Assembly (NCBI GenBank): GCA_036495095.1
Contig: DASXNK010000063.1
Location: 1-48,822, forward strand
Length of the DNA: 48,822 nucleotides
Source of the DNA: Candidatus Dormiibacterota bacterium
GTDB taxonomy: Bacteria > Chloroflexota > Dormibacteria > Aeolococcales > Aeolococcaceae
Direction of reading: 5' to 3'
Below, piece after piece: positions 35,051 to 43,871 of the stretch; within the stretch, counting starts at the first letter, position 1, and each line of letters begins with the position of its first letter. The notes under the pieces were generated by a model. It made no database searches, was not told where the DNA came from, and saw only the letters and a list, made by a program, of their open reading frames with translations. The position numbers and the translations under genes were made by a program.

Positions 35051-36004
35051 TCAGGAGACGGTGATCGACCCGTCCATCCCCGGGTGGAAGGTGCAGTGGT
35101 ACTGGTACTGCCCGGCCCGGGTGAACTTGATCTGGTACCTGTCTCCGGCCGCCATCGTGCCCGAGGTCAGCTCGGGGTCGGCGTCGAAGGTGACGTTGTG
35201 GGGCGCCGTTCCGGCGTTGGTCCACTGCACCACGCCGCCGCTGCTGACGGTGATCGTCGCCGGGTCGAACTTGAGGCCGGCGGTCTCCTGCACGGTCTGG
35301 GCCGCGGTCTGGCCGGTCACCTGCTGGCCTGCGGCCGGCGGCGGGGTCGGCACCGCGTTCGAGGAGGAGGCGCCCGCCGCCGCGGAGAGCGAGGGAAGCG
35401 GCAGCGGCTGCCCGGTCACCCTGCTCGCGACCGTGGCCAGCCGGCGGGCGAGGGCGTCGCCGCTGAGCCCGCCCACGTTGAGGCCGATGCCGACCACCAC
35501 GGGCCCGTCCTGGACCGCGATCAGGCCGGCGGTGCCGCTGCTGCTGACGTACGCCGGCCCGAGCGGCTGCAGCCCGGCGGTGACGTCGGCCAGCGAGGTG
35601 AGGGTCGCCTTGGGGTAGACGCTCACCACCAGCGTGGGCCCGCGCCCCGACTGGTAGGTGCACTGTCCCACCGCCGGGTGCGAGCCCACCGAGGTCACCA
35701 GGTAGTGACCAGGGGGCGCCGGGTCGGGGGTGCCGGTCGGCGCCGGGGTCGGTGCGCCCGGCGATGCCGCCGGCACCTCGGCGCCCGAGGGCAGGGCGAG
35801 CGCCGCCGCCACCGCGTCGACCGGCACCAGGCTGCAGGCGTCGGGGGTCACCGCCGGGGCCGGCGGGATGGTGTCTGCACTGATCTCGTCGGGCGACGAG
35901 GAGCAGCCGGTGAGGAGCAGGAGCAGGGCACCGAACGCGGCGCCACGCAGCCCGCCGAGGGTCCGGCCGGCGCGATCGGGGGTCCCTGGTCTCGGTATGC
36001 GCAT
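35051..36004 (-). CDS. Lipoprotein with plastocyanin-like copper domain
   Basis: A 317-aa exported lipoprotein: signal peptide ending in a lipobox LLTGC (Cys at about 34), a middle domain (about 54-195, DACSLVPVDAVAAAL...TYQSGRGPTLVVSVY) seen in actinobacterial lipoproteins, and a C-terminal cupredoxin domain (about 240-317). Type I copper ligands are visible: His in APHNVTF, Cys and His in YHCTFHPGM and Met in the same motif. It probably carries electrons or copper outside the membrane, possibly to a cytochrome oxidase. ATG start at 36004. A sole partner is the AllH-like gene directly downstream. Confidence 0.82.
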   Translation of the reverse strand: MRIPRPGTPDRAGRTLGGLRGAAFGALLLLLTGCSSSPDEISADTIPPAPAVTPDACSLVPVDAVAAALALPSGAEVPAASPGAPTPAPTGTPDPAPPGHYLVTSVGSHPAVGQCTYQSGRGPTLVVSVYPKATLTSLADVTAGLQPLGPAYVSSSGTAGLIAVQDGPVVVGIGLNVGGLSGDALARRLATVASRVTGQPLPLPSLSAAAGASSSNAVPTPPPAAGQQVTGQTAAQTVQETAGLKFDPATITVSSGGVVQWTNAGTAPHNVTFDADPELTSGTMAAGDRYQIKFTRAGQYQYHCTFHPGMDGSITVS

Positions 36005-37257: not shown

Positions 37258-38049
37258 CTAGCCCGGCGGTGGCGGGTCGTGCAGATCCACGACCACGGGA
37301 GCGTGGTCGGAGGGTCCCTTGCCCTTGCGAGCGTCCCGGTCGACGTATGCGTCGGCGACGGCGGCGGCGAGCGTGGGGCTGGCGTAGACCAGGTCGATGC
37401 GCATCCCCTGGTTCTTGTGGAACATCCCGGCGCGGTAGTCCCAGTAGGTGAAGGGGCGGTCGTATTTCATCGGACGGGGCACGACGTCCTGGAGCCCGAG
37501 GGCGCGCAGCTCGGCGAGCGCGTCGCGCTCCGGAGCGGTGACGTGGGTGGAGGCGGCGAAGGCCGCCGGGTCCCAGACGTCGGCGTCGGTCGGGGCGACG
37601 TTGAAGTCGCCGCACACCACCAGCTCGCGATCGGCGTCGAGCTCGGCGGCGACGGTGTCCCGGAGGGCGCGCAGCCACTCGAGCTTGTAGACGTACTGGG
37701 GATGGCCGACCTCGCGGCCGTTGGGGACGTAGACGGACCATACCCGGACGCCGGCGCAGGTGCCGCCGATGGCGCGCGCCTCGGGCGGGGTGGTCGGCGG
37801 CGCCCCGGGCAGCCCGGCTGTGACCTCCTCCAGCCCCACCCGCGAGAGCAGCGCCACGCCGTTCCAGCGACCCAGGCCGTGCGACGCCACCTCGTAGCCC
37901 AGCGCCTCGATCTCGGCGAGGGGGAACTCGGCGTCGGCGCACTTGGTCTCCTGGAGGCAGACCACGTGCGGCGCGGTCTGCTCCAGCCACTCCAGCAGCC
38001 GGGGAAGACGCGCCGCGATGGAGTTGACGTTCCAGGTTGCCAGCCTCAC
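37258..38049 (-). CDS. Exonuclease III-family AP endonuclease
   Basis: DNA repair nuclease of 263 aa that nicks DNA at abasic sites and removes 3' blocking groups. The catalytic residues are in place: Asn/Glu in TWNVNS and CLQETKCAD (Glu34), VYVPNG, CGDFNVAP (Asp/Asn), HKNQGMRIDLVY and the final SDHAPVVVDL with the general base His. Length and motifs fit the XthA/ExoA family. GTG at 38049 lies 68 bases from the ATG of the divergent SRAP-like gene, sharing a promoter region, so abasic-site repair may be linked to that protein. Confidence 0.93.
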   Translation of the reverse strand: MRLATWNVNSIAARLPRLLEWLEQTAPHVVCLQETKCADAEFPLAEIEALGYEVASHGLGRWNGVALLSRVGLEEVTAGLPGAPPTTPPEARAIGGTCAGVRVWSVYVPNGREVGHPQYVYKLEWLRALRDTVAAELDADRELVVCGDFNVAPTDADVWDPAAFAASTHVTAPERDALAELRALGLQDVVPRPMKYDRPFTYWDYRAGMFHKNQGMRIDLVYASPTLAAAVADAYVDRDARKGKGPSDHAPVVVDLHDPPPPG

Positions 38050-38117
38050 CGCCCCATCTTGGCAGGTGGTCCGGGGCGGTTTCGGGTCCCGCCCCCGGAG
38101 GGAATCCTCCCGGCAAG

Positions 38118-39086
38118 ATGGAGACGGCCCCGACCACGCCCGTGGATCCCCCCCTGGAGCAGCGCTCGATCGGCGACGAGGCCTTCTACGAGTGGCTGCT
38201 GTCCGACCACCCGATGGCCGCCGCCGAGCGTGCGCGGCGCCGGCGGGAGCACTACCTCCGCCGCGACGCCCAGCGCGCGGAGATCCGCGAGCTCATCGAC
38301 CACTGGACCCCCGAGGTGTCGCAGCGGCTCTTCGCCCTGCGCGAGTCGATGCGCCGCTTCGCCGACCGCTGGGAGGCGGTCTGCGACGAGTGGCTCGAGG
38401 GTGAGACCGTCGACGTCGAGGCGGTGCGGGCGCGGCTGACCCTGCAGCGCCGCGACCGCGGCGACGCCGGCTACCGCTACCCCGACCGCTACCGGGGCAG
38501 CCGTGCCGCGGCGTCGCCGCCGCCACCGGCGCAGGAGCCCTCCGGGCTCCTGCTCCAGCTGGAGCAGACCGCCGACCGCGAGTTCCTCTACGAGCGCTTC
38601 GGCATCGACCCCGGCCCGGTCGCGCCCCGGCTGCGGGTGCGGCCCACCCAGGCGCTGCTCGGGCTGGAGCAGACCGCGCGGGGTGTGGGGATGCGTGAGA
38701 TGCGCTGGCGGCCCGACGAGATCCTCGCCGAGACCGCCCTCGGCGGGTCCGCCGCGGTGGGACCGCGCCGGGTGGTGGTCCCCGCCGACTCGGTGCGGGC
38801 GCTGGGGCGGGAGCAGGGCGGCGGCCGGCCGGCGCTGGCGATCCGCCGCGGCGACCGCGACGTGCTCAGCCTCGCCGGGATCGAGGACGCCGGTGGCGTC
38901 GCCGTGCTGACCGTGGCCGCCGACAGCAGGTTCGGCCGCCGCGGCCAGCGGATGCCGCTGATCCTCGAGCCCGACGAGGAAAGCGAGTGGCTCGATGGCG
39001 GGCTCGACGCCGGCCGTCTCGCCGCCATCCTCGCCCGGCCGCGGTCGTTCGCGGAGCTGAGCGTGCTGCCCGCCGGCGCCGGGTAG
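38118..39086 (+). CDS. SRAP-like protein lacking the catalytic Cys/Glu/His, with helical N-domain
   Basis: A 322-aa protein: helical, charged N-terminal domain (about 15-115), Pro-rich linker (131-142) and a C-terminal domain (about 145-320) resembling SRAP (YedK/HMCES) proteins, which bind abasic sites in ssDNA and form a crosslink via Cys2. Matches: RVRPTQALL (174-181), MREMRWRPDEI (192-202), RRVVVPADS (217-225), SLAGIED (251-257), VAVLTVAAD (261-269), RMPLIL (278-283) and EWLD (290-293). The SRAP catalytic elements are absent: no N-terminal Met-Cys, no EW after VPAD (VRALG instead), and RRGQRMP in place of the usual His before RMP. It is probably a non-catalytic DNA or abasic-site binder. 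ATG 38118 lacks a strong Shine-Dalgarno. It diverges from the AP endonuclease gene. The assignment rests on weak motif matching and needs profile confirmation. Confidence 0.6.
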   Translation: METAPTTPVDPPLEQRSIGDEAFYEWLLSDHPMAAAERARRRREHYLRRDAQRAEIRELIDHWTPEVSQRLFALRESMRRFADRWEAVCDEWLEGETVDVEAVRARLTLQRRDRGDAGYRYPDRYRGSRAAASPPPPAQEPSGLLLQLEQTADREFLYERFGIDPGPVAPRLRVRPTQALLGLEQTARGVGMREMRWRPDEILAETALGGSAAVGPRRVVVPADSVRALGREQGGGRPALAIRRGDRDVLSLAGIEDAGGVAVLTVAADSRFGRRGQRMPLILEPDEESEWLDGGLDAGRLAAILARPRSFAELSVLPAGAG

Positions 39087-39140: not shown

Positions 39141-39431
39141 CTACGGGGTCGGCTTGGCCGTGGGCTTGGGGGTGTGGGTGTGGGAGGAGTGCGGGGTCCC
39201 GCTCACCTTCGGCTTGGGCACGTGGGTGGGCTTGGGCTTGGGCACGTGGGTCGGCTTCGGCTTGGGCACGTGGGTCGGCTTCGGCTTCGGCGTGCAGGTC
39301 TTGGTCGCGCTGGGCACGCAGTGGGTGCCGTGCGACACCGCGGCGGACGCGCCGGCCACGCCGGTCAGCGCTCCACCGAGAAGGCCCGCGGAGGCGAGGC
39401 CGGTGGCAACCATGCGTCGGACAGTCATCAT
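39141..39431 (-). CDS. Small exported protein with KPKPTHVP repeats
   Basis: A 96-aa protein with signal peptide (about 5-32), two cysteines (Cys38, Cys46) and a Lys/Pro-rich tail containing three perfect KPKPTHVP repeats (49-72), then PKPTAKPTP. Such cationic Pro-rich extensions are typical of wall-spanning segments interacting with anionic polymers. Tandem ATG codons at 39431; AGGGAAGGG upstream supports them. The corresponding DNA (39216-39287) shows 24-bp repeats that are coding, not an independent element. Confidence 0.65.
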   Translation of the reverse strand: MMTVRRMVATGLASAGLLGGALTGVAGASAAVSHGTHCVPSATKTCTPKPKPTHVPKPKPTHVPKPKPTHVPKPKVSGTPHSSHTHTPKPTAKPTP

Positions 39432-39541: not shown

Positions 39542-40012
39542 TCAGCTCGCCGCCGGGGCCGCCTGGAGGCGGGCGCCGATGCACCGGCCCATCTGGTCGA
39601 TCAGGCGGGCGGAGACGTCCTCGATGGCCCCGCGACCGAACTGGGCGATGCGGCCGGTCACGGTGAGATCGGTCTCCAGCCGCACCTCCGTGCCGCCCCC
39701 GGGGGTCGCCGCCACGGTGAGCACGAGCCCGGCGCGCACCGAGCCCTGGCCGCCGATCTCGCGGCCCTCGCCCTCGATGGTCACGGTCGCCGAGGTGTCG
39801 TCCTCGGCCACCTCCCTGATGCTGGCGGTGCCCCGGTAGGCGACCTGGACCGCGCCCACCTTGATCTTCAGGCTGCCGCGGAAGGTCTGGGAGTCGACCA
39901 CCTCGGCCAGCTCCGCGCCGGGCACGCAGCCGACCACCTGGCTGACATCGAGCAGGTACGCGAAGACCTGGTCGGGGGCAGCGTCGACGGAGAAGGAGCT
40001 GCTGATCCTCAT
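39542..40012 (-). CDS. coxG: CoxG-like SRPBCC protein
   Basis: A 156-aa START/SRPBCC-fold protein (CoxG family). Segments RISSSFSVDAAPDQVFAYLLDVSQVVGCVPGAE, FRGSLKIKVGAVQVAYRGTA and GRIAQFGRGAIEDVSARLIDQM match the CO dehydrogenase subunit G family, which anchors the enzyme to the membrane or aids assembly. AAGGAG precedes ATG 40012, which overlaps the stop of the XdhC/YHS gene (ATGA). Last gene of the cox operon. The usual C-terminal membrane segment seen in long CoxG proteins is absent: the protein ends at AAPAAS, so this is the short form. Confidence 0.85.
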   Translation of the reverse strand: MRISSSFSVDAAPDQVFAYLLDVSQVVGCVPGAELAEVVDSQTFRGSLKIKVGAVQVAYRGTASIREVAEDDTSATVTIEGEGREIGGQGSVRAGLVLTVAATPGGGTEVRLETDLTVTGRIAQFGRGAIEDVSARLIDQMGRCIGARLQAAPAAS

Positions 40013-40983
40013 CGGGTCTCCTTGGAGAGGGTGAGCGGCGTGGGGACGTGACGTGCCGGGTCGGCGAGGAAGCGGGTGCGACAGCCGGCCGCGCAGAACC
40101 AGTACTCGACGCCCTCGACGGTCGCCCGATGCCGGCCGGTGGCCACGTCGACGGTCATCCCGCAGATCGGGTCGACGGCCTCGGCGCGCTCCGCCGGCGG
40201 CGGGATCTCCGCCGCCGGGGCGGCCGCGGCGCGCCGCTGCACCAGCTCGGCGAGGATGGCGACCGCGATCTCGGGATGGGCGATCCGGCCCAGGTCGAGC
40301 CCGGCGGGGGCGCGCACCCGGGCCAGCGACGCCTCGGCCACCCCCCGGCCGCGCAGCCCCTCGAGGACGCTCTCGGCGCGGCGGCGGGAGGCCACCAGGC
40401 CGACGTAGGCGGCGCCGGTCGACAGCGCCCACTCCAGCCAGTCCTCGTCGTCGTGACCCTGGGTGGCGACCACGATGTAGGAGCCCTCGGTGACCCCGGC
40501 CCCGGCGAGGTCGCCGCCGGTCACGGGCCGGCCCTCGTCGGGCTCCGGGTCGACGGTCACCGTGTTCCAGCCGAGCGCACCGGCCATGCCCGCCAGCGCC
40601 TCGACCGCCGGCGAGCGCCCCACCACGGCGAGCAGCGGGCGGGGGAGGATGGGCTCGAGGAAGACCTCCAGGGCGCCCTCGCTCCGGCAGGTCATCGGCA
40701 GCGCCACCAGCCCGTCGTCCGCCGCCTCCTCCGGGGCGCCGGGCATGGTGCCGAGGACGACGAGCCGGGGCGTTCCCTCGCGGAGGGCGCGGAGCGCCTC
40801 ACGCACCACCGCCGGGCCGGAGCAGGCGCCCCCCACCCAGCCGTGGAGGACGCCCCGCGCGTCGATCACCGCGGAGCAGCCGGGCTTCCCCGAGCTGGGC
40901 GAGCGCCGCCGCACCACGGTGGCGAGCACCAGGGGCTCACCCTGGCGCCGGATCCGGTGGGCGAGATCGAGGACATCGACCAT
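40009..40983 (-). CDS. XdhC/CoxI-family molybdenum-enzyme maturation protein with C-terminal YHS domain
   Basis: A 324-aa protein. Residues 1-60 carry the XdhC/CoxI N-terminal domain (LATVVRRRSPSSGKPGCSAVI, GWVGGACSGP) and about 110-255 a Rossmann-type C-domain (LLAVVGRSPAVEALAGMAGALGWNTVTVD; YVGLVASRRRAESVLEGL; IAHPEIAVAILAELV). These proteins insert or sulfurate the molybdenum cofactor. A C-terminal YHS domain follows (AVDPICGMTVDV, EYWFCAAGCRTRFLADP), with a CGM and a CxxxC pair suited to metal binding. Such a fusion may add copper or metal handling, which fits the Mo-S-Cu site of CO dehydrogenase. It starts 18 bases after coxL and overlaps coxG. Confidence 0.88.
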   Translation of the reverse strand: MVDVLDLAHRIRRQGEPLVLATVVRRRSPSSGKPGCSAVIDARGVLHGWVGGACSGPAVVREALRALREGTPRLVVLGTMPGAPEEAADDGLVALPMTCRSEGALEVFLEPILPRPLLAVVGRSPAVEALAGMAGALGWNTVTVDPEPDEGRPVTGGDLAGAGVTEGSYIVVATQGHDDEDWLEWALSTGAAYVGLVASRRRAESVLEGLRGRGVAEASLARVRAPAGLDLGRIAHPEIAVAILAELVQRRAAAAPAAEIPPPAERAEAVDPICGMTVDVATGRHRATVEGVEYWFCAAGCRTRFLADPARHVPTPLTLSKETR

Positions 40984-41001
40984 GATCCGCTCGGCCTCCC
41001 G

Positions 41002-43355
<2,354 letters not shown>

Positions 43356-43359
<4 letters not shown>

Positions 43360-43871
43360 GTCCTGGCCCCCGCTGCCACGAGCTCGGCGGGTGCCGGTGC
43401 GGCCGCCGCCGCCCGCTGGGCCGCGGCGGCGTGCAGCACCGCCTTGACGATGTTCATGTAGCCGGTGCAGCGGCAGATGTTGCCGCTGATCGCCCAGCGG
43501 ATCTCGTCGTCGGTGGGATTCGGATTCTGCTCGAGCAGCGCGGTCGCCACCAACATCATCCCCGGGGTGCAGAAGCCGCACTGGAGCCCGTGCTCCTGGT
43601 GGAAGCCGTCCTGCACCGCGCTGAGCCTGCCGCCCTGAGCGAGGCCCTCGACCGTGGTGATCGCCCGGCCCTCGGCCATCGGCGCGAGCACAGTGCAGGA
43701 CTTCACCGGGCGGCCGTCGAGCAGCACCGTGCAGGCGCCGCAGCTGCTGGTGTCACAGCCGACGTGGGTGCCGGTCATCCCCAGCCGGGTGCGGATGAAG
43801 TCGACGAGCAGGGTGCGCGCCTCGCAGTCGGCGCTGCGCTCGGCGCCGTTGACGGTGACCGTGACCTTCAC
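43356..43871 (-). CDS. coxS: Aerobic CO dehydrogenase small (2Fe-2S) subunit
   Basis: A 171-aa electron-transfer subunit with two [2Fe-2S] clusters. The plant-ferredoxin-type cluster is bound by [11 protein letters not shown] and the later Cys in VKSC; the second by [11 protein letters not shown] and NICRCTGY. The C-terminal tail is Ala-rich. GTG 43871 overlaps the coxM stop by 4 nt; stop overlaps coxL start. The position between coxM and coxL is the usual order M-S-L. Confidence 0.95.

Follow-up and report, generated by a model that had tools for sequence, protein, structure and literature searches.

The SRAP family (PF02586), represented by YedK and HMCES, was described on the basis of a cysteine that is absolutely conserved (PMC3765255). 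This residue, Cys2, is invariant in SRAP; in YedK it forms the extreme N-terminus after removal of the methionine and is needed for the cross-link, and the acid-base chemistry is carried out by Glu105 and His160, both of which are needed for catalysis (PMC9436759). In the window (the whole analysed stretch of DNA, 48,822 nucleotides of contig DASXNK010000063.1 of a Candidatus Dormiibacterota bacterium), a gene lies back-to-back with an exodeoxyribonuclease III (ExoIII) gene and encodes a fusion of an unnamed helical domain to an inactive SRAP domain (Table 1). The positions and lengths of both genes and the spacing between them, as given in a preliminary description of this DNA, proved exact upon recheck. 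The 322-codon frame is intact and its GC3 of 0.96 is like that of the coding genes of the window; the alternative GTG start would shorten the product to 314 aa. We lean towards reading this product as a SRAP pseudoenzyme, in which a dead SRAP fold joined to a plasmid-type domain serves as a non-catalytic binding or adaptor protein, with ExoIII as a chance neighbour.

Table 1. Positions of the features of the locus and of its relatives in other genomes
Feature	Position	Strand	Remarks
Exodeoxyribonuclease III gene (xth)	37258-38049	-	263 aa, canonical; TIGR00633
Intergenic region	38050-38117		68 bases; separates the start codons of the two genes
SRAP-like protein gene	38118-39086	+	322 aa from ATG; alternative start GTG 38142
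N-terminal helical domain	38145-38528	+	residues ~10-137; homologous to actinobacterial plasmid proteins
Degenerate SRAP domain	38547-39083	+	residues 144-322; PF02586 match at residues 213-315
Relic of fused gene	L005 1370-1701 (G020, contig 206)	-	other genus of the same family
WP_219945853.1	L093 1158-1559		Iamia plasmid, 133 aa
WP_156819923.1	L186 3551-4477		Pseudonocardia plasmid, 308 aa
WP_330335760.1	L187 3947-4375		Streptomyces plasmid, 142 aa

SRAP homology and the active site

The strand pattern of SRAP proteins had been recognised by eye in the preliminary description, and the profile search bears this out: the frame matches PF02586 with an E-value of 5.4e-9 and 36.3 bits, above the curated cut-off of 27.1 bits, over profile positions 93-203 of 214, and is thus a true homologue. 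Residues 144-322 share both the fold and the sequence profile of SRAP, YedK and HMCES, including the motifs RPTQ, RW, RR-VVPAD, AGI, RMP and WL. An AlphaFold2 model of residues 136-322, which reached a pLDDT of 83.9 and a pTM of 0.83, was built with an alignment of canonical SRAPs that favours the SRAP fold, so that it demonstrates compatibility with this fold and not an independent discovery of it; the PF02586 match is independent of the model. When this model was compared to the PDB with Foldseek, 17 matches were obtained at E<=1e-3 and all 17 were SRAP structures, the best being YedK in several complexes (E 1.7e-8, TM 0.67-0.74) and the others 1zn6, 2f20, 2bdv, 2aeg and the HMCES-SRAP structure 6oov, with the next match following at E 0.69. 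Within the PDB the predicted structure resembles those of the YedK/HMCES type only, with a deviation from YedK of TM 0.69-0.74 and rmsd about 4 A. With a pI of 5.7 the SRAP part is mildly acidic, a point against DNA binding, though canonical SRAPs range from about 4.8 to 11. In the genome to which it belongs, which is 96.6% complete, no second SRAP was found.

The active site was compared in an alignment of 27 rows, consisting of the SRAP-like protein and 26 SRAPs (25 from viral contigs and one from a verrucomicrobial genome). At the position of Cys2, a cysteine in 26/26 of the others, the protein has Leu145, preceded by 144 residues. Likewise, Gly3 and Arg4 are replaced by Leu146 and Gln147, the Asn of YNxAP by Arg173 and the catalytic His by Gly276, and the Asn of NAR falls in a gap, each of these residues being kept in all 26 other rows. 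The FYEW motif, found as F-x-E-W in 26/26, has become Val226-x-Ala228-Leu229, with Ala228 in place of the catalytic Glu that every other row retains. The earlier statement that the N-terminal Cys, the EW and the His were missing therefore holds against all 26 aligned SRAPs, which do possess them. The protein further differs from SRAP, YedK and HMCES in an N-terminus that is about 140 aa longer and in a C-terminus that lacks the tail carrying the VN motif. Those SRAP copies of the same class and phylum whose sequences were inspected have a normal MCGR start and active site. Since the AP-site cross-linking centre is gone and an extension of about 140 residues replaces the free Cys2, the protein should be unable to capture abasic sites covalently, and its sequence together with the established chemistry of SRAP predicts that it does not form such a cross-link.

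The residues that hold the fold together have been retained, namely the Pro of APxQ, the Trp of RWG, the Arg of RC, the Pro of PAD, the Gly of AGL, the Thr, Arg-Met-Pro and the Trp of WL. This confinement of the losses to the pocket, next to preserved structural residues, argues for a kept fold. Among the papers searched for inactive SRAP paralogues, none described one.

Relatives, selection and the question of decay

In a genome of the same genus (G001), the ortholog is represented by a fragment at the edge of a contig, which shares 75% identity over 61 residues and is followed by coxG and xdhC frames, as in the window. Comparison with this fragment gave a dN/dS of 0.26 with a synonymous excess (Fisher p 0.0003), so the fragment is under purifying selection, a statement that covers 61 codons given that the material consists of one complete copy, this 61-residue fragment and one relic. 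The relic was detected in G020 and consists of a piece of the N-terminal domain, 58-60% identical, that runs straight into a piece matching QRMPLILEPDEESEW, about 215 middle codons between the N-domain and SRAP C-terminal pieces being missing; its last piece, matching LDGGLDAGRLAAILARPRSFAELSVLPA, lies in another frame after a 1-base frame change. Each of these pieces outscores 2000/2000 shuffles. The presence of the relic in another genus implies that the fused gene predates the genus and was lost or broken elsewhere. A SRAP match of any kind was found in 19/110 genomes of the class. In most genomes of the family no copy of the SRAP-like gene was found, and as the searched genomes are drafts, absence from the incomplete ones is weak evidence.

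The clear relic in this sister lineage, the lack of a detected copy in most family genomes and the loss of every catalytic residue would all be expected of a former SRAP fusion that is relaxing towards a pseudogene on its way to loss. We regard such a decay as doubtful, in view of the intact 322-codon frame with its normal coding composition, the dN/dS of 0.26 within the genus and the restriction of the losses to the pocket and the tail with sparing of the structural residues. Together, the kept fold residues and the selection on the fragment point to a SRAP pseudoenzyme and not to an obvious pseudogene.

On the side away from ExoIII, the gene is flanked by a cluster of the CO-dehydrogenase/xanthine-dehydrogenase type at 39542-43581 (-), which encodes CoxG, an XdhC that ends in a YHS-like part, and the large subunit of a molybdopterin dehydrogenase. 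A small secreted-looking protein with KPKPTHV-type repeats at its end and no Pfam match is encoded at 39141-39431 (-) and is absent from the corresponding place in G001. Another protein that looks secreted, encoded at 35051-36004 (-), carries a plastocyanin-like copper-binding domain at its C-terminus.

ExoIII and the intergenic region

The preliminary description had proposed that the protein is a non-covalent sensor of abasic sites or ssDNA that recruits the adjacent ExoIII, the two forming a dedicated repair pair. Such a pair would fit the SRAP ancestry of the protein and its divergent adjacency to an AP endonuclease. Moreover, active-site Glu, His or Asn mutants of YedK and HMCES show less cross-linking and have not lost DNA binding (PMC9436759), so by analogy a dead SRAP could still bind. 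The neighbouring ExoIII is indeed a full member of the TIGR00633 equivalog (E 4e-78, 262 bits versus a cut-off of 99), with relatives in 26/32 family genomes. The conservation of the divergent arrangement was assessed at 24 other ExoIII loci of the family, 23 of which came with 1.5 kb of upstream sequence; neither the SRAP-like gene nor its N-terminal domain was present upstream of ExoIII at any of these 23. Even in G002, of the same genus and with an ExoIII that is 87% identical, a different gene stands opposite, threonine-dehydratase-like as judged by eye and not by profile, and in G020 the relic sits on contig 206 but ExoIII on contig 22. An apparent SRAP remnant opposite ExoIII in G025 (L039, E 0.014) was dismissed as chance, as it overlaps a membrane-transporter-like ORF.

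The two genes of the window are divergent and not co-transcribed, and in no other genome examined is ExoIII linked to a SRAP-like gene. Adjacency without conservation is not evidence of joint function, and we therefore reject the pairing on synteny; ExoIII is, from the gene order compared here, probably a chance neighbour outside any system to which the SRAP-like protein belongs. Sensing of AP sites is weakened further by the loss of Arg4, of the Asn of YN and of the FYEW wall of the pocket, which leaves a sensor that recruits ExoIII very unlikely.

The intergenic region contains an inverted repeat, CCATCTTG at 38054-38061 and CAAGATGG at 38114-38121, the latter running into the start codon; the two copies face each other and have no other copies in the window. 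CAAGATGG also precedes ExoIII in G002. The repeats could be -10-like elements of two promoters, in which case GTG 38142, and not ATG 38118, may be the start codon of the SRAP-like protein. A hairpin in this region was discarded, the predicted folding being no stronger than expected by chance (z -0.92). Many ExoIII genes of the family (L031-L051, within the final 60 bases ahead of the start) carry TTGACG together with CATCCT or TATCCT in immediate proximity to the start codon, a pattern in the sequence that suggests short-leader or leaderless transcripts.

The N-terminal domain and a putative binding function

The extension in front of the SRAP part had been called a new helical domain. It is real and predicted to be helical, with helices at residues 21-30, 32-61, 65-95 and 100-115 and a pLDDT of 71-90 at residues 41-80 in a full-length single-sequence AlphaFold2 model, which was poor for the SRAP part and was used solely for these helices. 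It is, however, shared with other proteins, as homologues exist on actinobacterial plasmids. Residues ~10-137 gave no convincing match in Pfam, NCBIfam or PADLOC. WP_219945853.1, which Iamia sp. SCSIO 61187 carries on a plasmid, matches the domain over its full length, with 0/2000 shuffles reaching the score, likewise when the EWLLSDHP stretch is left out, and with this protein as query the Pseudonocardia and Streptomyces homologues were found. Common to the homologues is the signature EWLLSDHP-x-A-x2-ER-x-RR, followed by Y-x-YP and PPP; in the SRAP-like protein the middle element reads RYP. These plasmid proteins thus share the EWLLSDHP...YxYP...PPP helical domain with the SRAP-like protein and differ from it in being plasmid-borne and in lacking a SRAP part, none being present in the Iamia, Pseudonocardia or Streptomyces proteins. 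The domain represents an unnamed small family that spans plasmids of the Actinomycetota and the Dormibacteria lineage of the window.

Several other origins of the domain were considered and set aside: phage and viral contigs contained no matches, a comparison spoke against a distant relationship to SRAP, and a link to defence systems found no PADLOC match. Weak matches within the class and phylum were ascribed to chance, being single short stretches in unrelated proteins (sigma-factor-like, enoyl-CoA-hydratase-like and others).

The domain occurs without SRAP on plasmids: in Iamia its gene comes after parA and a small hypothetical gene, and in Pseudonocardia it lies C-terminally behind another N-terminal part without assignment. 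This invites the reading that this domain carries the function, in the maintenance of plasmids or mobile elements, with the dead SRAP as an accessory DNA-binding or oligomerisation module. The plasmid contexts differ, however, with a Phd/YefM antitoxin gene nearby in Streptomyces, the examples are very few and match no family of Pfam, NCBIfam or PADLOC convincingly, and the C-terminal SRAP part is itself under purifying selection, so that we deem a function led by the N-terminal domain distinctly unlikely.

In the pseudoenzyme that we favour, the SRAP beta fold would have been retained while the whole AP-site cross-linking centre was lost. The fold might then act, without catalysis, as a scaffold for binding nucleic acid or a partner, and the N-terminal domain, one of whose relatives on plasmids is encoded shortly after parA, may provide a second contact. 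Non-enzymatic binding or scaffolding would be the most likely function, and it is here that the main uncertainty of our interpretation lies. A more far-reaching version, which we put forward as tentative and rather improbable, is that of a new class of SRAP pseudoenzymes, in which a non-covalent reader of DNA or lesions is combined with a helical domain shared with plasmids into a damage-response or plasmid-control factor. The proposed non-catalytic binding of DNA damage would liken it to ImuB-C and other non-catalytic SOS components (PMC3765255), to which a sequence relation is not expected. If our interpretation is true, a naturally dead SRAP whose fold is under selection, and for which no active paralogue was found in the genome, would point to a use of this fold beyond covalent capture of AP sites, and the protein would offer a natural test for non-covalent roles of SRAP.
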